Below are positions 5,802 to 63,731 of a stretch of DNA of 64,000 nt, in pieces. The position numbers and the translations under genes are program-made. A model generated the notes under the pieces. The model did no database searches. It saw nothing but the letters and a program-made list of their open reading frames with translations, and was not told the origin of the DNA. The DNA is from Thermococcus bergensis (GTDB lineage Archaea > Methanobacteriota_B > Thermococci > Thermococcales > Thermococcaceae): positions 1 to 64,000 of the forward strand of contig NZ_JABFNK010000001.1 in NCBI RefSeq assembly GCF_020386975.1, read 5' to 3'. Numbering within the stretch: the first letter of the stretch is position 1; every line of letters begins with the position of its first letter.

Positions 5802-5830
5802 GATATGAAATGGTACGTGGAATATTATAA

Positions 5831-6762
5831 ACCCTAGTTCCCATTAGATCGTTAGAGTTATAAGCACTTAAGTCTTTTGGTTGATTGGTGGTTGTTATGA
5901 ACTTTCAGCAGGAAATCCTGATCATAAAATCCGAAATCTATCCGATAATCAGCAAACACTACCCGAAAAACACTCACAGGGAAATAATCAGCCTCTACGA
6001 CCTAATAACCTTCGCAATACTAGCACACTTGCACTTTAACGGAGTTTACAAGCACGCTTACAGAGTCCTAATCGAAGAAATGAAGCTGTTCCCAAAAATC
6101 AGGTACAACAAACTAACAGAACGCTTGAACAGGCACGAAAAACTCCTGCTCCTAGCGCAGGAAGAATTATTCAAAAAACACGCCAGAGAATACGTTAGAA
6201 TACTGGACTCAAAGCCCATTCAGACCAAGGAGTTGGCCAGAAAAAACAGGAAGGAGAAGAAGGGTTCTTCAGAAATCATCTCTGAAAAGCCCGCAGTTGG
6301 GTTTGTTCCCTCTAAAAAAAGTTTTACTATGGGTACAAGCTGACCTGTTACTCTGATGGAAATTTGCTGGCTTTACTGTCTGTTGATCCGGCGAATAAGC
6401 ATGATGTGAGTGTTGTCAGGGAAAAGTTCTGGGTGATTGTTGAGGAGTTTTCTGGCTGTTTTCTGTTTTTGGATAAGGGTTACGTTAGTAGAGAACTTCA
6501 GGAGGAATTCCTGAAGTTTGGCGTTGTTTACACGCCGGTGAAGCGGGAGAATCAGGTTAGTAATCTGGAGGAGAAGAAGTTTTACAAGTACTTGTCTGAC
6601 TTTCGCAGGAGGATTGAGACTTTGTTTTCGAAGTTTTCTGAGTTTCTTCTGAGGCCGAGCAGGAGTGTTAGTTTGAGGGGGTTAGCTGTCAGGATTTTAG
6701 GGGCGATTCTGGCCGTGAATCTGGACAGATTATACAACTTCACAGGTGGTGGGAACTAGGGT
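5831..6762 (+). mobile_element. IS982-family element, copy 1 (932 bp)
   Basis: Inverted termini are ACCCTAGTTCCCA and TGGGAACTAGGGT. Flanking direct repeat TTATAA (5825-5830 and 6763-6768). Two further copies of exactly the same length occur at 56506-57437 and 62800-63731. Confidence 0.9.
5897..6759 (+). CDS. IS982-type transposase, two frames joined by a -1 shift
   Basis: The ATG at 5897 follows GGTGG. The first frame (MNFQQEILIIKSEIYPII) ends with a stop at about 6343, and the second resumes before LLALLSVDPANKHDVSVV. A -1 slip at the A7 run 6314-6320 joins them as SKKKFYYGYKLTCYSDGN. Probable DDE residues are the D of ILDSKPI, the D of FLFLDKGYVS and the E of RRRIETLFSKF. All three copies in the window have the same A7, so this is either programmed slippage or an ancestral lesion that spread. 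Total length would be about 287 residues. Confidence 0.75.
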
Positions 6763-48675: not shown

Positions 48676-48982
48676 GGGTGGACACAGAGGGGAAAGCAAA
48701 GGGGAAAGGGTTTTTAAGACCATGTCAAAACTCAAAGATGATAGTAACCGATGATGAGTGTCAAAAAGACCCAATTTTTTGCATACTTTTTCCCCAAAAT
48801 TTTAAAGATAGGAAAGGATAAAATATGCACTATTTCTTAGTTTTTCATACTATTATCCCAGTTGTTGCTCCAAGATGACTACAATAATTATACATCATCG
48901 GTTGTATTGTATGAAAGACCGATATGTTTATTAATAATTTTGTTGATAATATTAAACAGTAAGTTCATACTGGGTAGTGTCC
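48676..48982. repeat. Gene-free stretch with an 11-bp inverted repeat before the recombinase
   Basis: AACCGATGATG (48746-48756) and CATCATCGGTT (48893-48903) are exact inverted copies about 136 bases apart, in an AT-rich region with no ORF. The right arm lies 80 bases before the recombinase start. It may be a regulator or recombinase site at the edge of the island. The AT-rich GATAATATTAAAC at 48945-48957 is a possible promoter for the recombinase. Confidence 0.4.
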
Positions 48983-49701
48983 ATGAGGAGGAAGGTGTTT
49001 TCCCATCAAAAGGATTCACTTGAATCCTTCACTGATACAGATGCTGTGATCATAATGCTAAGTGACTTCGACGAATATAAAGAAGAGCTGGTCAAACAAA
49101 GACAAAATGGCCAATTGACCGTTGGAGCTTTCCAAAATAAGTCATCAGCCATAAACGTTTTCATCGAATATTTACTCAAAACCAAAAACCCAGAACAAAC
49201 AACTAATGGTGAAATAAAGATCACAGCACGTGATGTATATGTTGCGTTTAATGAATACATTAAAGAACGACGTCCAGCACGTCATACCCTCCAAACCTAT
49301 CTTTACTACACTCGTAAAGCCCTTGAACACATCTTGCTCAAGAAATACAATCTTCTTCTCTCGAAGACGCTTGGAATTGAAGTCTTTGACATTGACTTTT
49401 ACTTAACACAGCTCTCGAAATCCACCTTACGATCAAAAGGAAGTCAACTAAAGGCATTTAAAAAGAAAGAAGAGAGTAAAGTCATTAGTGACGAAAGAGT
49501 TAAAGATGCCCTAAAATGGCTTGCAATTCTCAGGCAGGAAAGAGATAGTATGGCAGTTGAAAAACTGCGATTAGCAACTCTGATCGTATTATTGACCGGA
49601 GCAAGAGGCACAGAAGTAAATGACTTACAATTTGAGGTGCGAGTCAATGAGGAAGTTTTAAAACAAATTGATCTCCGAAAAGGCATTATATACTTCCACA
49701 G

Positions 49702-50570
49702 GGGCGTGTTTAGTTTCACCCCCTGTTATTTAAACAGTATTTGACTCTGAGGAGGATTTTCAGACCATAACACATTACCCCAAGCAGGATTCGGGTTACA
49801 GTAGTCTTTTTCAGAAAACAGGGGATCCTACTGCCAAACCACGTTGTAAACGCACCCCAGAACCCCTCATGAGGATTCCTACGCCTGTACTCTTCTTCAG
49901 AAAACACTCTGTCTCTCTTCTTACTACCAAAACCACCTGGAGCGTTCTTAGTTTTCTTAACAATCGGCCGATAACCCTTTTCCACCACAGTGTTCAGAAC
50001 TTTCTTTGAATCATAAGCCCCATCAGCATAAAAATTCCCAGAACCCCCCGGCAGGAGTTCAATCAGCTCGTTCTCAGAAGTTGTGATCTTCACAGCAACC
50101 GGATACAGTAAACCCGGCAGGATTCTCGTTATTGCCTGAACTTCTATCCTGCCCTTTTTTTATTTGTAATAATGGTTGAGTCTGCTTGAGTGCTGGCGTA
50201 GGGTAATTTCTGGAGTTTTTTCAGGAGGTGGTTTGTCAGTTCTTCGAGGTTCAGCTTTTTCTCCCAGTTGTGGAGGGTTGAGTAGTGAATGTTTGCTCCG
50301 AAGAATTTTCTGCCGTAGTGCTGGGCGTCTCTGAGGGGTAGGTTGTAGTATTGTTTAAAGAGGAGTATTGCCAGTATTGTTTTTACTGGAAATTTTTTGG
50401 ATTTTGGCAGGTTCTTCAGCTTTCCTTCTGATTCGAAGTCTGCTAAAACGTCAAGAATTGCGAATGCCACGCTTTCAGGGTCTTTGAGTCTGTGATCCCA
50501 TCTGGGGATCACGACAACCACCCGAAAGAATTCAGCAAAAACCCTAATAAAGGTTACTATAAACACGCCC
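49702..50570 (-). mobile_element. 869-bp insertion sequence, copy 2, inside the recombinase
   Basis: Same termini as copy 1 (GGGCGTGTTTA...). The 10-bp direct repeat ACTTCCACAG flanks it (49692-49701 and 50571-50580). Removing the element and one repeat restores the recombinase frame exactly. Confidence 0.93.
49716..50566 (-). CDS. DDE transposase of the 870-bp IS, copy 2, two frames joined by a -1 shift
   Basis: The upstream frame reads without the lesion of copy 1 (VKTILAILLFKQYYNLPLRD) to TIITNKKRAG and a stop. The downstream frame (VKITTSENELIELLPGG and on) runs to 49716. They join after a -1 slip at A7 (50155-50161, minus strand), giving KGRIEVQAITRILPGLLYPV. The C-terminal half is almost identical to copy 1 (YRRRNP for YRHRNP). 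If slippage occurs, this copy could be active. Confidence 0.7.
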
Positions 50571-50876
50571 ACTTCCACAGAAAGAAATTAAAGGCAGACG
50601 ACGACAAAAACTTTACCCCAGTTTTCATTCACCCATTACTAATCGAAGAGCTCAAAATATTCAAGAAGAAACACATTCTTGATCCAACACAACCGATTTT
50701 CGGGTACTACTCTTTAGATAAAACATTCAAGAATTTTTATACTCCCAATAGAGCCTTTAAAAAACGAACTCAGCTAGAAAACCTCTACAGAAAATATGAG
50801 TGGCTCAGAAATTATGAACCTCAAAAGCCTATTATCACGGTAAAAATGTTCCGAAAATATTTTGATAGTTATCTTC

Positions 50877-51655
50877 GATACTGTCAGGATAACTGGGGTA
50901 TCACCTCCTGAAGCCATTCAGTCACATCACCAGGCGGTCCACCAAACCGAGAATGAATTCTAACAAAATTATACCAGAATGAAAACAGAAAAACAAACCT
51001 GTGAACCCTCCTCCAGTCTCTAGCCCTGAAGTTATTCCAGAAACGCTTTGTTCTCTCTTTAACAGTCCTAAACCAGCGCTCAACACAGTTCCTCGGCCCG
51101 AAAGTCACATGCAGATAATCCAGCCCGAGAGATTTAAACGCTGATTTATACCACGGCCCTTTGTCAACCAGGAAAATTGGCTGTCCCTCGCAGGATTTCA
51201 AAACAACTAGAATGAAGTCCCTGGCAATCCACCAGTTCCTAACGCTTGTAATCCATACTGCTAGGATTTCTTTGCTCTCAACGTCGATTGCAGCCCAGAG
51301 AAATCTCTTCTGGCCGTTGATCTTTATCACTGTCTCGTCAATTGCGATGAAGTTTCTCTGTTTTTTGACTGCGAGGATTTTCGGCTGGTAAACTGCTTTC
51401 GCGAATTTTTGGACTGTTTCCCAGACTGTTGTGTGGCTGATTTCGAGGATTGTTCCTACCTGTCTGTAACTTAGTCCGTGCAGGTACAGGTTTATTGCCC
51501 TGGTTTTCTTTTTTGCTGGGATTTTGTTCCGGCGAAAGGTTTTTAAGACTGAAACCAGTAAGTAAATAATGGTTTCAGTCCTCATTTCTCTCCCCTTTTC
51601 TGAAGAGGTATCAGAAACTTAAACCTAACGTCCCACTGCTTATCCTGACAGTGTC
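50877..51655 (-). mobile_element. IS6-family element, copy D (779 bp), inside the recombinase
   Basis: Termini as in copy A; 9-bp direct repeat GTTATCTTC (50868-50876 and 51656-51664). Confidence 0.93.
50884..51585 (-). CDS. IS6-family transposase, copy D
   Basis: This 233-residue transposase is identical in protein sequence to copy A at 14.6 kb, 36 kb away and on the opposite strand. All DDE motifs are present. Identity between copies implies recent movement, later than the arrival of the island whose recombinase it breaks. Confidence 0.93.
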   Translation of the reverse strand: MRTETIIYLLVSVLKTFRRNKIPAKKKTRAINLYLHGLSYRQVGTILEISHTTVWETVQKFAKAVYQPKILAVKKQRNFIAIDETVIKINGQKRFLWAAIDVESKEILAVWITSVRNWWIARDFILVVLKSCEGQPIFLVDKGPWYKSAFKSLGLDYLHVTFGPRNCVERWFRTVKERTKRFWNNFRARDWRRVHRFVFLFSFWYNFVRIHSRFGGPPGDVTEWLQEVIPQLS

Positions 51656-52069
51656 GTTATCTTCAAGATAAAATCTTTGAACTCACAGGAGAAAGAACTG
51701 TTACCACACTATTTGGCAAAGGACTTTGAAGCATTGGACAAAATGAGGAGATATAAAAATTACCTCCTCGGACGAGCTGAAGGAGTGGACTTTCTGCACT
51801 ATATCTCAATAACAGAGGACAAGAGGTACTCTTCCAAGCTCAAAAAACTCAATAAGATGCTCATTGACGGGCTTATTGACAAACTAATGCCCGAACTATT
51901 ATATGTGCTTAGTGAGGAGACAAGAACAAAAATATTATCCAATAATAGCGAAGTTTGGAAGTTTTCGGAGAGCTTATCTGATTCTCCACTTTATAGCCAC
52001 TATGGATAAGGTTGATCTATGTTCACTAACTCTCCACATGCTCCCTTAACAATCTTTTCTCCATTTTGC

Positions 52070-53381: not shown

Positions 53382-55217
53382 GTGGGGATCTTCGATGATG
53401 GAGATGTGGAATGTGTTAAAAACCTATTAAAGCCTGCCGAAAGGGTCCTGAAGCAGGGCAGAGACATCTTGGTAGAAGACTTTGCCCAAAGGGAGCGCTT
53501 ATGGTATGAAGTGAAAAGAGCATATGACAGCTACTTGGACGGCTTCTGTGGGGGTTTTCTGAAGGATCTAGATAACGCATTCAGGGCCAAGTTTGAAGCG
53601 GCTTTGGCAATACTCGCGTGGAGTTTTGAACAAAATGGTGAAGCATTTTATCCCGCAAAGAAGAGGTTCACAGAGGAAGAGCTTCAAGTGGTCGATGAAA
53701 TCTTGAAGTACAACATATTTGAGATAATGACGAAGGACGACATCCTGACGAAGCTTTACAGAAGGGATTCTGAGGTTCTGGAGTTGCTGAAGACTTATTA
53801 CCTCGGAATGGACAAATGGGTTGAGGAGCAACTTAACAATCCCAACATAAAACTTCCCCTAAGGTATTACTTTAAGAGAACCTGGGAGAGATACAAGGGA
53901 AAACTTAACGATGCAATTAACGAGGCCAACAAATATGACTGGTTTAGGACGTTGCTCGAAGAATGGGAGAAAGACAAGAGAGAAAGTGTTGATACGGTGA
54001 GGTCAATTTATGAACAAAAGGTTCAGGAACTTAGGAAACATATTGAAGAGCTTACAAAAGCGTTTGAATATGAGAAGGAAAGAATAGTTCAAGAAATTTC
54101 GCGTGCAAGCATGGAAGAGATAGAAAGACTGGAAAGGGAAAAGCAGGAACTAATTGAGCGTTTTGAAAAAGAAAAGGAGGAACTTGTCAAAAAACTTACT
54201 GAATTGAAAGATAAGGAGCTTCAAGAAAAGCTTCAGGAAGAACTTGAAAAGGCCAGAGAGAATATGCTAAGGGAAGTAAAAAGGTTAGAGGAGGAGATAC
54301 AGCGCAGGAGCATCGAGTTAAAACAGAAAGAGATGGAGCTCAAGAAAAAGGAGCTTGAACTGGCGGAAAAAGATCAGGAACTGCGCAAGAAGATAGATGA
54401 AGTTCTCAAAGCCTCGGAGAATCTTGAAAAAGGATCCCGCCTTGTTATCAGGGAGGATGCTAGGATACAGGAGCTGAACTTTTTGGGGAGGTTGAAGAGC
54501 AAGTTCAAGAATGAAATAAAACTTCTAGGCAAAACTTACAAGATAGAGGAACTTAACGAAAAAATTGGTGAAGATGTGTCCAAGTTCGCATCAAAACTCG
54601 ATGAAAAAACCCTAAAGAACTTGCCGGAGAACAGGTATTTGGAAGTCAAGATAAAGGAGAAGAAACTTCTTGGGAGCAAAGAAAAGCTCTTCTTAAAGGC
54701 TTATTACCTAACGAGGGTTGATAAGCTTGCAGATTATGGGTTTGATACTGATCCATTAGAGCTCGCAGATATAAACGCTTATCTAGTTGATGCAAGGGAT
54801 TCTTCAAAGAACGAGCGCACAATCCTAGTTATTGCAACGCCTCTAGGCTTCGAAGAAAGAATAAAAAAATACGTCAATTCTGACCAGTTCCACCAAAACT
54901 TCTACTCTGAGAACGTCTCGTTGCTTTTGCTTGACGTTGAGACAGGAGAGGTCATCTACAATCCGAATGACAAGTATGCAAAGGCTCTCGCTCCGCTGGT
55001 ACGCATGGAGCTCGATGAAGAAGTCTATGCCAAAGTAAAGGAATGCATACGAGGGAAACTCTCCGAAAGAGACTATTTGCCCTTTGAAGAAGTGAAAGAC
55101 TGTGGGGATGAAGCTTACGTTAAGAAGGCGTTTTATGAAGTTGCCAATGAAGAGAATGGTGTTGTTAAGTATATCGATGGTTTTGGACTAGTATTAATGA
55201 AGGGGGTTAGAAAATGA
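53382..55217 (+). CDS. Large coiled-coil protein, 611 residues, island operon gene 3
   Basis: The start is GTG 53382 with GGGGGT upstream. Residues 1-200 are helical and globular. Residues about 205-345 form a long charged coiled coil (EEIERLEREKQELIERFEKE, EMELKKKELELAEKDQELRK). Residues 365-611 form a C-terminal domain with strands (ENRYLEVKIKEKKLLGSKEK, FGLVLMKGVRK). No nucleotide-binding motif is visible. The shape suggests a scaffold or sensor. It overlaps the next gene by 4 bases. I do not recognise the family. Confidence 0.65.
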   Translation: MGIFDDGDVECVKNLLKPAERVLKQGRDILVEDFAQRERLWYEVKRAYDSYLDGFCGGFLKDLDNAFRAKFEAALAILAWSFEQNGEAFYPAKKRFTEEELQVVDEILKYNIFEIMTKDDILTKLYRRDSEVLELLKTYYLGMDKWVEEQLNNPNIKLPLRYYFKRTWERYKGKLNDAINEANKYDWFRTLLEEWEKDKRESVDTVRSIYEQKVQELRKHIEELTKAFEYEKERIVQEISRASMEEIERLEREKQELIERFEKEKEELVKKLTELKDKELQEKLQEELEKARENMLREVKRLEEEIQRRSIELKQKEMELKKKELELAEKDQELRKKIDEVLKASENLEKGSRLVIREDARIQELNFLGRLKSKFKNEIKLLGKTYKIEELNEKIGEDVSKFASKLDEKTLKNLPENRYLEVKIKEKKLLGSKEKLFLKAYYLTRVDKLADYGFDTDPLELADINAYLVDARDSSKNERTILVIATPLGFEERIKKYVNSDQFHQNFYSENVSLLLLDVETGEVIYNPNDKYAKALAPLVRMELDEEVYAKVKECIRGKLSERDYLPFEEVKDCGDEAYVKKAFYEVANEENGVVKYIDGFGLVLMKGVRK

Positions 55218-55804
55218 AAATATTGGATAGGTTTAGGAAAAACCCTGTCGAAAAACTCTCCCTAAGGGAGCTCCAAGAGGAAGAGATAAGGCTAAGAAAC
55301 CGCTTGGAAAGAATGAAGAAGGAAATAAACAACATAGAGAGGAAGAAAAAGCAACTCTTCCAGGAAGGAGTCGGAGCAGATGTCTTAAAGAAGAAGATGC
55401 TTGCTCAGGAAATTAAAAGCCTCGACCTTGAAGAAAAGCTCAAGCTCAGGGACTTTACAACGGCTCAGAGGCAGTACACGTTAGTTAAGAACCTCATCAT
55501 TGTAAAGAAGTACGAGAAGGAGTTAAGAAAAATAGGTATATGGGACAAGTTAGCCAAAATTGCGCCCGAGCAACTTGAGACTGCCTTGGTAAAGATAAAC
55601 CTCGATGGAAAGGAATTCGATGAGATGGTCAACAGCCTCAACAGAGTCTTTGAAATGGAAGTTGCTGAGTTTGAGGCTACAGAGGATCAGACAGAAAAAG
55701 AGCTTCTTCAAGCCTGGGCGATGGTTGAAGCTGGGGAGGCAGACATAGAGGAGGCGTTTGAAAAGGTTAAGGAAAAAGAGTCAAAGGAGCTGGAGGAGTT
55801 GTGA
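55214..55804 (+). CDS. Helical protein A of a paralogous pair, 196 residues
   Basis: The protein begins MKILDRFRKNPVEKLSLREL and forms two long helices (EEIRLRNRLERMKKEINNIE, then LDLEEKLKLRDFTTAQRQYT) followed by an acidic C-terminal part ending KELEEL. It resembles the next gene in layout: a short F/KNP start, a helical hairpin and the same end. The long-hairpin shape recalls ESCRT-III/PspA-type filament proteins, but that is a shape comparison only. It is coupled to genes on both sides. Confidence 0.6.
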   Translation: MKILDRFRKNPVEKLSLRELQEEEIRLRNRLERMKKEINNIERKKKQLFQEGVGADVLKKKMLAQEIKSLDLEEKLKLRDFTTAQRQYTLVKNLIIVKKYEKELRKIGIWDKLAKIAPEQLETALVKINLDGKEFDEMVNSLNRVFEMEVAEFEATEDQTEKELLQAWAMVEAGEADIEEAFEKVKEKESKELEEL

Positions 55805-56416
55805 ATGGCTTTCTTTTCCAGATTTTTTGGCAAGAAAAATCCGCTTGACATTCCATTGAACCAGTTGAAGGAAACCCATGTTAAGTTGGACATGCAGATA
55901 AGAAAAATAGAGGCAGAGATGCTTGAAATTGACAGGCAAATTGCACTTCTTTTTGAGCAGGCAAAGAAAGCCAAAAGCAAGGCTGAAGAACTGACCATAG
56001 CCACCAAAATAAAGACCCTCAACCAGAGGAAGAAGAATCTGCAGAACACTCATTTTCAATTGAACAAGCAGATGATGCTCGTGAGCAACCTTATGATAAT
56101 CAAGGAGAATGAGGCTATCTTGAAGAACACCCCTACGTGGAAGATTCTGCATGAAATGTCTCCTGAAGAGCTGGAGCAACGTTTGACCGAAATGCAACTG
56201 GACACTCAAAATTTGAATGAGAATTTAAACCAGATGCTCGGCTACACCGATCAGGCTCTCTCTACTGGAGTTGAATTCGAGACCGATGAAGAGCTTGCGG
56301 AGATTTTGGATACGATTAGGGCTGTTAAGGAGGGTGAGCTTGAGCCTGACGTGGCCGCAGAGAAGGTAACTGGAGAGGAGAGAAAAAAGAAGCATCTGGA
56401 GCTTGAGGAGCTTTGA
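55805..56416 (+). CDS. Helical protein B of a paralogous pair, 203 residues
   Basis: The protein begins MAFFSRFFGKKNPLDIPLNQ, has two long helices (HVKLDMQIRKIEAEMLEIDR, TIATKIKTLNQRKKNLQNTH) and an acidic tail ending HLELEEL, like protein A. The start immediately follows the stop of protein A. The pair most likely arose by duplication and probably forms a heteromer. The shared LEEL end could be a docking tail for a helical partner such as the MIT-like protein at 63870. Function unknown. Confidence 0.6.
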   Translation: MAFFSRFFGKKNPLDIPLNQLKETHVKLDMQIRKIEAEMLEIDRQIALLFEQAKKAKSKAEELTIATKIKTLNQRKKNLQNTHFQLNKQMMLVSNLMIIKENEAILKNTPTWKILHEMSPEELEQRLTEMQLDTQNLNENLNQMLGYTDQALSTGVEFETDEELAEILDTIRAVKEGELEPDVAAEKVTGEERKKKHLELEEL

Positions 56417-56455
56417 TTTTAGCTTATTTTCATAACTATGGTGGGAGGTGATATA

Positions 56456-56505
56456 GTGTCTATGGTAACAAAGAGAGATATCCTTTACTTGATATTAATA
56501 TTTTT
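56456..56505 (+). pseudogene. First codons of membrane kinase 1, cut off by IS982 copy 2
   Basis: GTG 56456 (or ATG 56462) with GGAGGTGAT upstream starts the frame TKRDILYLILIF. It continues across the IS (one TATTTTT copy removed) into IVTSWTYGFLFSGDELDIVG of the kinase gene at 57438. This is the original start of kinase 1 and lies 39 bases after protein B. Confidence 0.75.
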
Positions 56506-57437
56506 ACCCTAGTTCCCACCACCTGTGAAGTTGTATAATCTGTCCAGATTCACGGCCAGAATCGCCCCTAAAATCCTGACAGCTAACCCCCTCAAACTAA
56601 CACTCCTGCTCGGCCTCAGAAGAAACTCAGAAAACTTCGAAAACAAAGTCTCAATCCTCCTGCGAAAGTCAGACAAGTACTTGTAAAACTTCTTCTCCTC
56701 CAGATTACTAACCTGATTCTCCCGCTTCACCGGCGTGTAAACAACGCCAAACTTCAGGAATTCCTCCTGAAGTTCTCTACTAACGTAACCCTTATCCAAA
56801 AACAGAAAACAGCCAGAAAACTCCTCAACAATCACCCAGAACTTTTCCCTGACAACACTCACATCATGCTTATTCGCCGGATCAACGGACAGCAAAGCCA
56901 GCAAATTTCCATCAGAGTAACAGGTCAGCTTGTACCCATAGTAAAACTTTTTTTAGAGGGAACAAACCCAACTGCGGGCTTTTCAGAGATGACTTCTGAA
57001 GAACCCTCCTTATCCTTCCTGTTTTTTCTGGCCAACTCCTTGGTCTGAATGGGCTTTGAGTCCAGTATTCTAACGTATTCTCTGGCGTGTTTTTTGAATA
57101 ATTCTTCCTGCGCTAGGAGCAGGAGTTTTTCGTGCCTGTTCAAGCGTTCTGTTAGTTTGTTGTACCTGATTTTGGGGAACAGCTTCATTTCTTCGATTAG
57201 GACTCTGTAAGCGTGCTTGTAAACTCCGTTAAAGTGCAAGTGTGCTAGTATTGCGAAGGTTATTAGGTCGTAGAGGCTGATTATTTCCCTGTGAGTGTTT
57301 TTCGGGTAGTGTTTGCTGATTATCGGATAGATTTCGGATTTTATGATCAGGATTTCCTGCTGAAAGTTCATAACAACCACCAATCAACCAAAAGACTTAA
57401 GTGCTTATAACTCTAACGATCTAATGGGAACTAGGGT
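56506..57437 (-). mobile_element. IS982-family element, copy 2 (932 bp), inside kinase 1
   Basis: Termini as in copy 1; 7-bp direct repeat TATTTTT (56499-56505 and 57438-57444). Confidence 0.92.
56509..57371 (-). CDS. IS982-type transposase, copy 2, two frames joined by a -1 shift
   Basis: Same layout as copy 1, with A7 at 56948-56954 (minus strand) between the frames. The only clear differences are KDKEGSSEV for KEKKGSSEI. DDE residues are intact. Confidence 0.75.
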
Positions 57438-59518
57438 TATTTTTTATTGTTACAAGCTGGACTTATGGGTTTCTCTTTTCAGGTGATGAGTTAGACATAG
57501 TAGGTGCATTGTATGCTATTGGACTCCCCAGTTCGGGAGTCCTTGCAATAATGTATATCTATTCTAAAAAGCTTGAGAGAGCATCAAAAGCATTACTTCT
57601 AATGTCTTTAATAGCCATGACGGTTGGATTAGTCCAGTTATGGAGAGCGATTTCAATTTACAGAGAACTAGGAGCTGTCTATCTTAACATTGAAAATGCG
57701 GTAAAAGGAACAATAGCAGCTGTTACTGGTAATTACCCAAAGATGGACGAAGTATATTGGGGAACTGAATGGATAATACTAAAATTTGCAGCAATGTTCT
57801 TAGGGCTTCCCCTTGTTTACGGAGTGTTTCTATTCTTCCCGATTCTTTTATTACCTAAAAATTCCATATTAAGGAAGATATCGTTGTTATTTGCCTTTAC
57901 CTTTGGTCTAATACTTCAAGGATACTTAATCTTTGTTTCTAAGATTGCAGAAACAGCAGACATGTTACCTTTTTATCTTTCTTTGATATTAATTACATCA
58001 TGGGAAGTTCCTCTAATATTTGAAAAAGTTAAAAGGCTGAATAAACCAGAAATTCTTGCCGGAATCACTTTATTATACCTTGGGGTTTTTGGACTTTATT
58101 ATCTATATTACAGCGCTTTAACAGGCGATATCGGTTGGGCTCCTAACGAGTACATTCCTATAAGCTTCTCAGGATACATAACGGGCTTGTTCCTACCATA
58201 TCAGGCTTTTTTACTTTCTAATTATATCCAGAAAAAAGTACCCACTAATAAACTTGCGGTTTTATTATCCCTTCCTGCTCTTATACAGATTTTTTTAATA
58301 GCTATTATAGCTATTTATGATGGAGTAGAAGTTGATATCCCATTTTGGTATGAGATGTTGCTTTCGCCATATCTCATCCCAATTGCATTTCCTTTCCTCT
58401 CTGAGGAACTTCGTACAATTTTTGAATTTGAAGTAGAAAAACCAAAACTGATTTACGGTCCATCAATTGATGCTCTCCGTGAATTATATGAAAGGGTAGA
58501 ATACATTGGAGAAGGAGGATTCGCATATGTTTTCAAGGCTATCCGAAAGAGAGATGGTAAGACAGTTGCTGTAAAAATTCCAAAAACACTAAATCCAGCT
58601 ATGGGAAGAATGTTCATTAAAGAAGTTGGCAACTGGCTTCACCTTATACATCCTAACATAGTCCGTTTATACGAGGTAAACATTATTCCGGTTCCGTACA
58701 TCGAGATGGAGTACTGTGAGGACTCCCTCGAAAGGGAGAAGAAGCCGATGGAGGCAGAGAAGGCGGCCTGGCTGGTCTTCAACGCGGCCGAAGGTCTGAA
58801 GTACGCACACTCCAAGAGGATACTCCACAGGGATTTGAAGCCAAGCAACATCCTCCTGAAGAACGGAATTCCCAAGATTTCCGACTGGGGGCTGAGCAAG
58901 TTTATTGGAGAGGAAAGTACCACTACAATGGCTTTTACACCATATTATGCCTCTCCCGAGCAGATAGCTCCGGAGACCTTCGGCGAGGTTGACGAGAGGA
59001 GCGACATCTGGCAGTTAGGCGTCGTCTTCTACGAACTCCTAACGGGCAAGCGCCCCTTCGACGGCGGCTCCCTTTCGAGCTTAGCCCAGGCGATAACCAC
59101 GAAGGAGCCGCCGAGGCCGAGCGAGCTGAACCCCGACGCTAGGCCCTTCGACAACATCGTCCTCAAGATGCTCGCCAAGAGGAAAGAGGAGCGCTATGGG
59201 AGCGTCGAGGAGCTCCAGAGAGACCTGGCAAAGATCCTCGGCATTAGCTACCAGAGGAAGCTTGAGAGGAGCGTATCCTCAAAGGACTTCTCCCGTTCGG
59301 CCTTCTACGCCGGCGAGCTCGCGCTGATGCACCTCAAGCTCGGCAACTATAAAGATGCCCTCAAGTACCTCAACGACCTGAAGGTCTATTCCAAGAGCAG
59401 GGAGCTTGACGGCCTGATAAAACAGGTCGAGCTGGCGATGGAGGAAGGTGTCAAGCTCGGCGAGGACTTCCTTGCCCACGCCGAAGTCCTGATCCACGAG
59501 ATAAAGATGGGGCGGTGA
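57438..59518 (+). CDS. Membrane-bound Ser/Thr protein kinase 1, 5' end displaced by IS982
   Basis: About nine to ten membrane helices (for example AAMFLGLPLVYGVFLFFPIL and LAVLLSLPALIQIFLIAIIA) precede a Hanks-type kinase domain. The domain has the Gly loop GEGGFAYVFKA near 58508, Lys in VAVKIPK, HRDLKPSNILL near 58828, DWG in place of DFG, APE-like ASPEQ, and DIWQLGVVFYELLTGKRPF. The C-terminal 85 residues are a helical module (ALMHLKLGNYKDALKYLNDL, then VKLGEDFLAHAEVLIHEIK) that resembles those of the TIR protein and kinase 2. The remaining frame can start at TTG 57509. From about 58700 the codons become GC-rich, unlike the AT-rich first half. Confidence 0.85.
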
Positions 59519-60354: not shown

Positions 60355-62832
60355 ATGTCCTACTGGGCTAAGACGTATGGTAAGGGAAAGGCTAAGGGAG
60401 TAGCCGTTGATGAGAACGGGGACATTATCGTTGTCGGGCAGAAAGAAAAGGACGCGTTCGTTGCTCGACTTGATAAAGACGGGAACGTGAAGTGGTTCAG
60501 GACATATGGAGGAGATAAGTGGGACATCTTCAACGATGTGAAGATAGCTCCCAATGGGGACATTATTGTTGCTGGCTCCAGTTGGAGTTTTAGCGCTAGT
60601 GATAAGGATGTTTGGATTTTGAGACTAGATAGCGAGGGTAACATTAAATGGCAGAAGACTTATGGAGGAAGCAATGCTGATGTGGCTAATGCAGTTGCTA
60701 TCGCTCCAAACGAGGATATTATCGTGGCAGGCTACACTGAAAGTTTTGGGGCTGGTGATTGGGATGTTTGGGTTCTCAGGCTCGATGCTGATGGTAACGT
60801 TAAGTGGCAGAAGACCTATGGGGGAAAATGGAGGGATGAGGCTACTGGGGTTGCCATCGCTGACAACGGGGACATTATTGTTGCAGGATATACTTCCAGC
60901 TTTGGCGCTGGTTTAGCTGATGTTTGGGTTCTCAGGCTTGACGAGAATGGTAATGTTAAGTGGCAGAAGACTTACGGAGGAAGCCGTTGGGACCAGTCTA
61001 CTGGGGTTGCCATCGCTGACAACGGAGAAATTATTGTGGCTGGTTATACTGAGAGCTTCGGTGCTGGTTGGAGAAATGTTTGGGTTCTCAGGCTCGATGC
61101 TGATGGTAACGTTAAGTGGCAGAAGACCTACGGGGGAAGAGATGGGGAGGGGGCTCACGCAATTGCCATCGCTGACAACGGGGACATTATTGTTGCAGGA
61201 TATACTTCCAGCTTTGGCGCTGGTTTAGCTGATGTTTGGGTTCTCAGGCTTGACGAGAATGGTAATGTTAAGTGGCAGAAGACTTACGGAGGAAGAGACT
61301 GGGATCGGGCTTGGTCGGTTGCCTTAGCTGACAACGGGGACATTATTGTAGCTGGATACTATGGAGCAACTACTCTTGATGGTTCTGGGGGCAATGTTTG
61401 GGTTCTCCGCCTTCCTTCGGATGGAAACCTTCCGGATTGCGACTTCTGCAGAGACTCGAGTGCCCAGATAACCAACACAAACGTGGAGGTAAGCAATACG
61501 AACTGCGAAGTCCTTAGCGGTGTTAGAAAGTATCAGTTTGAGATCGGACTAATCAGAAAAAGACAGGAGTGGCGTACTGAACAAGCTCCCCTCGCTGTCA
61601 AAAATTCGAGTGCTCAAGTTGAAACCATCTACATGGAGCCAGAAACTCAGTACTACCGCTCTACTCATGAAACTATAATGAAAATACCCACTTCTGAAAC
61701 ACACCAAAAAACTGAACCTAACAAACTAGTAGCCAAAATTAAAATCCCACCAAGAGTTCCAATAGCCCCACTCGGTGAAGGCTTCCCTTCAGCTCTCCTC
61801 TCCCGCTACGAGCCCCTCGAATTCTTGGGTGAGGGCGGCTTCGCCAAAGTCTTCAAAGCAAGGAGAAAGTCTGACGGCCAAACTGTCGCCCTAAAAATCC
61901 CAAGAATTGATGAGAGAACGAGCTCGCTCTTTCTAAAAGAAATAGCCGCTTGGTATTACCTAAACCATCCCAACATTGTAAAGCTCTACAAAGCGGATAT
62001 ATTCCCAATTCCATACCTCGAGATGGAATACGTTGAAGGAGCTAAGATTGACGACAAAATTGTTCGGGACTTGGACAAATACCCCAAACCAGTTGACGAA
62101 AATACCGCTTTAAAACTCATCGTAGGCATTGCTGAGGGTTTGAAACATGCTCACTCGAAAGGAATCTGGCATCTCGATTTAAAACCCCTTAATGTACTCC
62201 TCAAACGTGACTTGACTCCCAAGATAACCGATTGGGGCTTAGCGAAAATAAGTACAAGGAGCTCTCTTTCAACCAACAGTGGCTACTCACCCCTTTACGC
62301 AGCTCCAGAACAGCTTGACGAGGAGACTTATGGGGTTCCAGATCATAGAACCGACATTTATGGCCTTGGTATTATCTTCTACGAACTGTTAACTGGCAAG
62401 CTTCCTTACGAGGGGTATTCACCAGGAGCAGTCGTTGGTAAGATTCTAGCAAAGGACATCAAGCCCACACCCCCATCGAAGATTAACCCTGCTTTAGCCA
62501 AGTACGATGGAATCTTTGAGAAGCTTTTGGCAAAAAGAAAGGAGGATCGCTACCAGTCCATTGAGGAATTCCTACAAGCTTTAAACGCTCTGGAAGCCCT
62601 CCACAAGGAGCGTGAAGAATTAAAGAAAAGCCTCAAAGAGACCAAGCAGACGCTAAAAAAGAGTCGCTCAAAGGGGGAGATCCAGAAGCTCACAAGAGAG
62701 GCCGTTGAAAAAACTGCAAAAATTGCGCTTTTGAGTGCTAGGCTCAATGATAAGGCCGAGCTCTTAAATGCTCTCGAGGATTTGAAGTTTTACACAAAGA
62801 CCCTAGTTCCCACCATCTGTGAAGTTGTATAA
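60355..62832 (+). CDS. Seven-bladed propeller-Ser/Thr kinase fusion (kinase 2), 3' end cut by IS982
   Basis: Residues 1-360 contain seven blades of about 52 residues, each with the pattern DENGDIIVAGYTxSFGAG, VWVLRLDxDGNVKW and QKTYGG. A linker of about 120 residues follows, then a Hanks-type kinase (residues about 483-750). The kinase has Gly loop GEGGFAKVFKA, Lys in VALKIP, HLDLKPLNVLL (Leu replaces Arg of HRD), DWG for DFG, and DIYGLGIIFYELLTGKLPY. A coiled coil (KSLKETKQTLKKSRSKGEIQ) leads to the C-terminal module, which IS982 interrupts after DLKFYTK. The IS adds LVPTICEVV. ATG 60355 has GGGGGTG upstream. No signal peptide, so cytoplasmic. Confidence 0.85.
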   Translation: MSYWAKTYGKGKAKGVAVDENGDIIVVGQKEKDAFVARLDKDGNVKWFRTYGGDKWDIFNDVKIAPNGDIIVAGSSWSFSASDKDVWILRLDSEGNIKWQKTYGGSNADVANAVAIAPNEDIIVAGYTESFGAGDWDVWVLRLDADGNVKWQKTYGGKWRDEATGVAIADNGDIIVAGYTSSFGAGLADVWVLRLDENGNVKWQKTYGGSRWDQSTGVAIADNGEIIVAGYTESFGAGWRNVWVLRLDADGNVKWQKTYGGRDGEGAHAIAIADNGDIIVAGYTSSFGAGLADVWVLRLDENGNVKWQKTYGGRDWDRAWSVALADNGDIIVAGYYGATTLDGSGGNVWVLRLPSDGNLPDCDFCRDSSAQITNTNVEVSNTNCEVLSGVRKYQFEIGLIRKRQEWRTEQAPLAVKNSSAQVETIYMEPETQYYRSTHETIMKIPTSETHQKTEPNKLVAKIKIPPRVPIAPLGEGFPSALLSRYEPLEFLGEGGFAKVFKARRKSDGQTVALKIPRIDERTSSLFLKEIAAWYYLNHPNIVKLYKADIFPIPYLEMEYVEGAKIDDKIVRDLDKYPKPVDENTALKLIVGIAEGLKHAHSKGIWHLDLKPLNVLLKRDLTPKITDWGLAKISTRSSLSTNSGYSPLYAAPEQLDEETYGVPDHRTDIYGLGIIFYELLTGKLPYEGYSPGAVVGKILAKDIKPTPPSKINPALAKYDGIFEKLLAKRKEDRYQSIEEFLQALNALEALHKEREELKKSLKETKQTLKKSRSKGEIQKLTREAVEKTAKIALLSARLNDKAELLNALEDLKFYTKTLVPTICEVV
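60851..61296 (+). repeat. Near-identical propeller-blade repeats in DNA
   Basis: About 133 bases at 60851-60983 recur without a visible mismatch at 61163-61295, exactly 312 bases (two blades) apart. Other blades are also very similar. This indicates recent duplication or gene conversion of blades. Confidence 0.9.
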
Positions 62833-63731
62833 TCTGTCCAGATTCACGGCCAGAATCGCCCCTAAAATCCTGACAACCAACCCCCTCAAACTAACACTCC
62901 TGCTCGGCTTCAGAAGAAACTCAGAAAACTTCGAAAACAAAGTCTCAATCCTCCTGCGAAAGTCAGACAAGTACTTGTAAAACTTCTTCTCCTCCAGATT
63001 ACTAACCTGATTCTCCCGCTTCACCGGCGTGTAAACAACGCCAAACTTCAGGAATTCCTCCTGAAGTTCTCTACTAACGTAACCCTTATCCAAAAACAGA
63101 AAACAGCCAGAAAACTCCTCAACAATCACCCAGAACTTTTCCCTGACAACACTCACATCATGCTTATTCGCCGGATCAACAGACAGTAAAGCCAGCAAAT
63201 TTCCATCAGAGTAACAGGTCAGCTTGTACCCATAGTAAAACTTTTTTTAGAGGGAACAAACCCAACTGCGGGCTTTTCAGAGATGATTTCTGAAGAACCC
63301 TTCTTCTCCTTCCTGTTTTTTCTGGCCAACTCCTTGGTCTGAATGGGCTTTGAGTCCAGTATTCTAACGTATTCTCTGGCGTGTTTTTTGAATAATTCTT
63401 CCTGCGCTAGGAGCAGGAGTTTTTCGTGCCTGTTCAAGCGTTCTGTTAGTTTGTTGTACCTGATTTTTGGGAACAGCTTCATTTCTTCGATTAGGACTCT
63501 GTAAGCGTGCTTGTAAACTCCGTTAAAGTGCAAGTGTGCTAGTATTGCGAAGGTTATCAGGTCGTAGAGGCTGATTACTTCCCTGCGAGTGTTTTTCGGG
63601 TAGTGTTTGCTGATTATCGGATAGATTTCGGATTTTATGATCAGGATTTCCTGCTGAAAGTTCATAACAACCACCAATCAACCAAAAGACTTAAGTGCTT
63701 ATAACTCTAACGATCTAATGGGAACTAGGGT
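62800..63731 (-). mobile_element. IS982-family element, copy 3 (932 bp), inside kinase 2
   Basis: Termini as in copies 1 and 2; 7-bp direct repeat CACAAAG (62793-62799 and 63732-63738). Removing it restores the kinase 2 frame. Confidence 0.93.
62803..63665 (-). CDS. IS982-type transposase, copy 3, two frames joined by a -1 shift
   Basis: A7 at 63242-63248 (minus strand) joins the frames as in the other copies. It differs from copy 1 at a few residues (LLKPSRS for LLRPSRS, GLVVRIL for GLAVRIL, NTRREVI for NTHREII). DDE residues are intact. Confidence 0.75.

Follow-up and report, generated by a model that had tools for sequence, protein, structure and literature searches.

The 64,000-nucleotide stretch of Thermococcus bergensis DNA studied here (the window, which is the beginning of a 291-kb Thermococcales contig) encodes two adjoining small helical proteins, IIIa and IIIb, followed by a membrane kinase gene and, at the far end, by a gene that continues past the window (Table 1). 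A 2021 review described the Thermococcales as being without ESCRT-III and their vesicle route as unknown (PMC10117752). The locus raises the question whether IIIa and IIIb are ESCRT-III subunits and what role they would play in these cells. The evidence presented below indicates that they are very probably an ESCRT-III-family subunit pair, belonging to an ESCRT system of Thermococcales that is of the euryarchaeal type published as 'Main'.

Table 1. Location of the genes discussed in the text (coordinates without prefix refer to the window)
Feature	Protein	Location	Strand	Basis or remark
Protein with HEPN-type Rx4H motif (RNKVVH, residue 204), 244 aa	P0005	52120..52854	+	motif found by eye and by script
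Probable arCOG08177-type protein, 174 aa	P0004	52854..53378	+	gene order, co-occurrence with IIIb; putative assignment
Protein with helical, coiled-coil and C-terminal domain regions, probable winged-helix (wH) partner of arCOG09748 type, 611 aa	P0003	53382..55217	+	region layout, position
IIIa, ESCRT-III-like subunit, 196 aa	P0001	55214..55804	+	paralogy with IIIb, AF2 model, Foldseek, charge
IIIb, ESCRT-III-like subunit, 203 aa	P0002	55805..56416	+	Snf7 matches, AF2 model, Foldseek, charge
Membrane Ser/Thr kinase (multi-pass), gene interrupted by IS		56440..59518	+	Pkinase 1.9e-46; intact 713-aa copy in twin contig L004
TIR-domain protein with ESCRT-kinase C-terminal module	P0007	59534..60244	+	TIR_2 3.9e-16; kinase-tail HMM E=1.6e-9
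Delta-60 beta-propeller + Ser/Thr kinase	P0008	60352..62832	+	C-terminal module interrupted by IS, rest read beyond the IS
Vps4-type AAA ATPase, first 43 codons of 393 aa	P0010	63870..64000, continues past the window (complete: L002:1371-2552)	+	AAA, Vps4_C
IIIc, third small helical ESCRT-III-like protein		L002:8883-9452		downstream of Vps4; strongest Snf7 match
Pentapeptide-repeat channel genes		L057:9130-10254, L050:2501-3634, L056:16991-18103		directly ahead of Vps4

The initial annotation described IIIa and IIIb as paralogues, and this was borne out. In the window the ATG of IIIb immediately follows the TGA of IIIa, and in most loci that were read the stop and start overlap by 4 bases. The two proteins share 32% identity across their length. 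Profile-profile comparison of their ortholog families gave a probability of 98.7% (E=2.4e-16, 185 columns), with a score of 104.8 as opposed to 13.7 for the reversed profile and none of 150 column shuffles scoring as high. Judged by these profiles, homology of the two families is beyond reasonable doubt. Of 94 genomes of the Thermococcales, 39 contain IIIb, with IIIa adjoining in all of them except G020. When genome contigs were searched with P0002, the sole match was a near-identical twin contig (L004).

The F/K-rich start with KNP, which had been noticed in the two proteins, proved to be conserved, in IIIb as M-x-x-[FLI]-S-[RK]-FFGxKNP (invariant M1, S5, F7, F8, G9, N12 and P13) and in IIIa as MxIxDxFxRKN. 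The common ELEEL end, on the other hand, is real in the two proteins of the window but is not a conserved signature: among 18 orthologs of each protein, LEEL stands at the end of only three in the case of IIIb and one in that of IIIa. A more loosely defined acidic end (EE plus hydrophobic residue) occurs in 10 of 18 IIIb and 13 of 18 IIIa orthologs and is absent from some IIIb orthologs. Since the tail is not conserved, the interpretation of LEEL as a MIT-binding MIM motif was dropped.

Structure prediction of each protein and comparison with ESCRT-III and CdvB, proposed earlier as a check, favoured the ESCRT-III reading. In the AF2 models, which were built from an alignment of just the two window proteins with each other, IIIb (pLDDT 75) and IIIa (pLDDT 77) consist of a short N-terminal helix, a 36- and then a 43-residue helix, and shorter helices. 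The two long helices expected from the sequence were thus predicted in both proteins (residues 18-53 and 59-101 in IIIb, 17-52 and 57-99 in IIIa; pLDDT of the IIIb hairpin about 82-92), and both models have the helix order of ESCRT-III, a long alpha1-alpha2 hairpin followed by short helices. In a Foldseek search of 350,542 PDB chains the first match of both models was a CdvB2 filament (probability 0.94 and 0.97, TM about 0.4, E-values of 0.26 and 0.38, which are not significant). Chains of the ESCRT-III superfamily (CdvB, CdvB2, Asgard ESCRT-IIIB, CHMP, Vipp1) made up 13 of the 50 matches listed for IIIb and 24 of the 50 listed for IIIa; those of IIIa include CdvB, CHMP1B, CHMP2A/3, CHMP3 and Vipp1. 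Helical hairpins draw chance matches, and no E-value for IIIa or IIIb was below 0.001. Because of these E-values the fold matches support the ESCRT-III identity without proving it.

A basic N-terminal half followed by an acidic C-terminal half is the ESCRT-III charge pattern. The net charge of IIIa is +11 in residues 1-105 and -15 after, that of IIIb +7 in the N-terminal and -15 in the C-terminal half. Splitting at residue 105 gave a basic N-half (+4 to +13) and an acidic C-half (-9 to -21) for all IIIa, IIIb and IIIc orthologs examined. The 11-residue N-terminal segment is conserved and hydrophobic/basic; its hydrophobic moment is not above that of shuffled sequences (median shuffle fraction 0.13-0.25). 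Its position corresponds to that of the amphipathic helices by which CdvB proteins are membrane-associated (PMC12818579).

The initial annotation regarded the likeness to ESCRT-III as one of shape and not of recognized sequence. This has to be revised: weak but repeated similarity to the Snf7 family was found, so the likeness is not merely of shape. With the Pfam Snf7 profile, matches at E<=1 were obtained for 12 of 18 IIIb orthologs, the best of them (1e-3) remaining below the curated cut-off, and the IIIb of genome G056 aligned to profile positions 4-169 of 171. All nine IIIc members tested matched, the best with 4.5e-6, and none of the 18 IIIa orthologs did. When 115 whole genomes were scanned with this profile, 17 matches were obtained at E<=1e-3, of which 15 were in IIIc (11) or IIIb (4; G085, G056, G020 and G042). 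No match exceeded the Pfam curated cut-off, and the Sulfolobus acidocaldarius control likewise remained below it. IIIb and IIIc are similar at the profile level (hhalign E=2e-4, none of 150 shuffles as good), and the likeness between IIIa and IIIc is weaker. Pfam/NCBIfam searches with P0001 and P0002 themselves gave no significant family match, and sequence searches of the PDB with the IIIb and IIIc profiles and with P0002 and P0011 found no ESCRT-III chain. The best PDB sequence match of IIIb, the trypanosome surface helix bundle ISG65, was judged to be a chance match. The C-terminus of IIIc has a conserved RLxxI, which looks MIM1-like by eye.

The gene at the end of the window, for which a MIT-like helical start had been suggested, was completed from the genome sequence. 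It encodes a Vps4-type ATPase with a single AAA domain (1.1e-39, 136 bits) and a Vps4_C domain (1.1e-8, 35.4 bits, curated cut-off 21.3). The MIT part of the suggestion fared less well. The first ~75 residues have a conserved helical pattern of three segments, but Pfam MIT did not match this N-terminus. Comparison with four solved MIT domains (three archaeal ones and human VPS4B) by hhalign gave an in-register alignment of 51 columns (P=0.004, probability 8%); 1 of 150 shuffles was as good, and reversed profiles scored lower. This weakly supports a MIT-like domain, the presence of which we consider likely. Pfam MIT matches across the Thermococcales were discarded as mostly noise, bacterial controls matching as well, and PDB matches to profiles of the MIT region were at chance level.

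Gene order was read from 20 genome stretches. The usual order is P0004 - P0003 - IIIa - IIIb - kinase(s) - Vps4 - PP2C - further kinases - IIIc; in some genomes a second Vps4 adjoins IIIc, which then lies directly upstream of it. P0003 overlaps IIIa by 4 bp. Among the 94 genomes 37 have both IIIb and Vps4 (counted as strong matches of the Vps4 search), two have IIIb only, two Vps4 only and 53 neither (Fisher p=2.6e-21). IIIb and P0004 occur together in 38 genomes, each alone in one, and are both missing from 54. In G020 IIIb is fused to the N-domain of a P0003-type (wH-type) protein (E=1e-37), which indicates a physical link between IIIb and this protein. The kinases carry signal or TM segments and propeller or PEGA domains that face outward, and the PP2C phosphatase is membrane-located. 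Genome G076, which lacks the system, contains remnants of it (L062), a 37-residue Vps4 start and a kinase tail, which look like a recent loss. Upstream of the ESCRT genes lies the gene of P0005, a helical protein without a Pfam match that is also found in G089. The gene at 48977-52009 is broken by transposase insertions; its intact 455-aa form (L004:227-1594) looks integrase-like and had no Pfam match.

These genes match a published type. In the catalogue of Makarova et al. (2024, mBio, PMC10936438), the Thermococcales are among the named members of the 'Main' euryarchaeal ESCRT system, which comprises Vps4, ESCRT-III, arCOG09748 (helical, coiled-coil, central and wH regions), arCOG08177 (Cas2-like plus TBP-fold), kinases and phosphatases, the membrane kinases carrying a C-terminal helical PCI-like module. 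The locus has the combination that characterizes 'Main', with Vps4, ESCRT-III-like genes, kinase and phosphatase together. It also shares the protein with N-helical, coiled-coil, central and C-terminal regions, the small partner, and Ser/Thr kinases of the membrane that have extracellular domains and end in a helical module. P0003 and P0004 are probably arCOG09748 and arCOG08177, respectively, by layout, size and position. According to the same source, in most archaeal systems the ESCRT-III gene is upstream of Vps4 and the wH protein often further upstream, and the position of IIIa and IIIb fits this statement. The main text of that paper describes no TIR protein, ion channel or fusion of ESCRT-III to a wH-type N-domain.

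IIIa and IIIb resemble Sulfolobus CdvB, CdvB1 and CdvB2 (PMC12818579) in their best PDB fold matches, in the short N-terminal segment before the alpha1-alpha2 hairpin and in having a cognate Vps4. They differ from CdvB in that no CdvA was recognized in the locus, the subunits are without a C-terminal winged helix, FtsZ is present and sequence similarity is low. Vipp1/PspA has a hairpin of the same superfamily and is among the fold matches of IIIa; PspA_IM30 was not among the Pfam matches listed for IIIa and IIIb orthologs. PspA systems are not known to have a Vps4 partner.

The window contains three 0.93-kb IS copies (5830-6761, 56507-57438 and 62801-63731; 98.6-99.4% identical). The second splits the membrane kinase gene behind IIIb, which is intact in the twin contig, and the third interrupts the C-terminal module of the kinase with the propeller, whose gene immediately precedes Vps4. 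Regulation of the ESCRT system may be impaired in this strain.

The C-terminal module ends most kinases of the ESCRT loci and also a few small proteins. An HMM of this ~80-residue C-terminus was made from 40 kinase tails and matched two TIR proteins that it did not include, P0007 in the window and a diverged one in the ESCRT operon of G019 (L082, E=1.9e-19). TIR proteins were found in 3 of the 39 operon-bearing genomes, representing two lineages. The WVRGE stretch resembles the catalytic-Glu region of active TIRs. In three operons (G030, G046 and G022) a pentapeptide-repeat/Ion_trans_2 (two-TM) channel is encoded just before Vps4, and in G057 an ORF of equal size occupies this position. That an immune-type TIR protein is linked to the ESCRT system by a tail which the kinases also have appears to be previously unreported; the features new here are the TIRs with the kinase module, the fusion of IIIb to the wH-type N-domain and the ion channels of some operons. 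The pattern suggests that variable output modules are attached to a constant ESCRT core. Tentatively, the ESCRT operon of some Thermococcales could be a signalling platform, the kinase module acting as a docking tag that brings TIR, and possibly channel, effectors to the ESCRT/Vps4 assembly.

Such effectors would also suit a different explanation, compatible with the ESCRT-III identity, in which the whole system is an antiviral or abortive-infection device whose ESCRT polymers and kinases gate TIR, HEPN and ion channel effectors. Besides the TIR proteins with kinase tails in two separate operons and the channels in several, the HEPN-type motif of P0005, the sensor-like kinases and the patchy occurrence of the system (39 of 94 genomes) agree with it. 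However, the constant core occurs without effectors, and the low number of TIR-containing operons and the few channels indicate that the effectors are accessory, which leaves defence as the main function unlikely. An accessory, Cdv-like machine for cell division would accord with the kinship to CdvB and CdvC, which divide Sulfolobus cells (PMC12818579). But FtsZ is present in 94 of 94 genomes and IIIb is absent from 55 of the 94, so division is an improbable role, and we consider this explanation extremely unlikely.

The identity of the pair itself would be different if IIIa and IIIb were generic coiled-coil adaptors of a kinase/wH complex, like the steadiness-box or CdvA-like hairpins of other archaeal ESCRT loci, and IIIc the sole true ESCRT-III. 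The Snf7 similarity, strongest in IIIc and not detected in IIIa, and the unspecific hairpin fold match speak for such adaptors, but the IIIb alignment over nearly the whole Snf7 profile, the resemblance of the IIIb and IIIc profiles and the ESCRT-III-like charge pattern speak against them. Moreover, nine genomes have IIIb without IIIc, some of them near-complete and with Vps4 (e.g. G018), and with adaptors in place of ESCRT-III the substrate of Vps4 would be missing there. An adaptor function is thus quite unlikely. The reading of IIIa and IIIb as filament-type, membrane-remodelling components was largely right in view of the Vps4 gene in the same operon, the Snf7 similarity and the CdvB2 fold matches, and filament-forming proteins of the ESCRT-III kind are what the sequences and models most likely represent. 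The results named earlier as counting against this reading, folds unlike ESCRT-III/PspA or a terminal protein lacking a MIT or ATPase domain, were not obtained.

By analogy with ESCRT biology the system may work as follows. Through translational coupling IIIa and IIIb would be made at about the same level, and their acidic C-terminal half would keep them closed. Using the short segment at the N-terminus together with the basic alpha1-alpha2 hairpin, they would co-polymerize at the inner face of the membrane, the polymer probably being nucleated by the wH-type protein, and Vps4 would take it apart. The membrane kinase may recruit IIIa and IIIb, as was suggested earlier. The kinases with signal or TM segments and outward domains (beta-propeller or PEGA), opposed by the membrane PP2C phosphatase, argue for signal-controlled assembly. 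The system is likely to serve membrane remodelling under the control of signals, for repair, cargo sorting or the release of vesicles, and not cell division.

In about 40% of the sampled Thermococcales genomes, two or three ESCRT-III-like proteins are thus accompanied by a Vps4, kinases and a phosphatase of their own. Their hosts have FtsZ and, in some cases, genetic tools, so that an ESCRT system dispensable for division can be tested for functions in vesicle release, membrane repair and defence, and phospho-control of ESCRT becomes open to study outside eukaryotes. If the TIR link holds, ESCRT and TIR signalling would be joined in archaea, and a signalling platform of the kind proposed would amount to an immune or damage response that is linked to ESCRT in archaea and has an NAD-consuming output.
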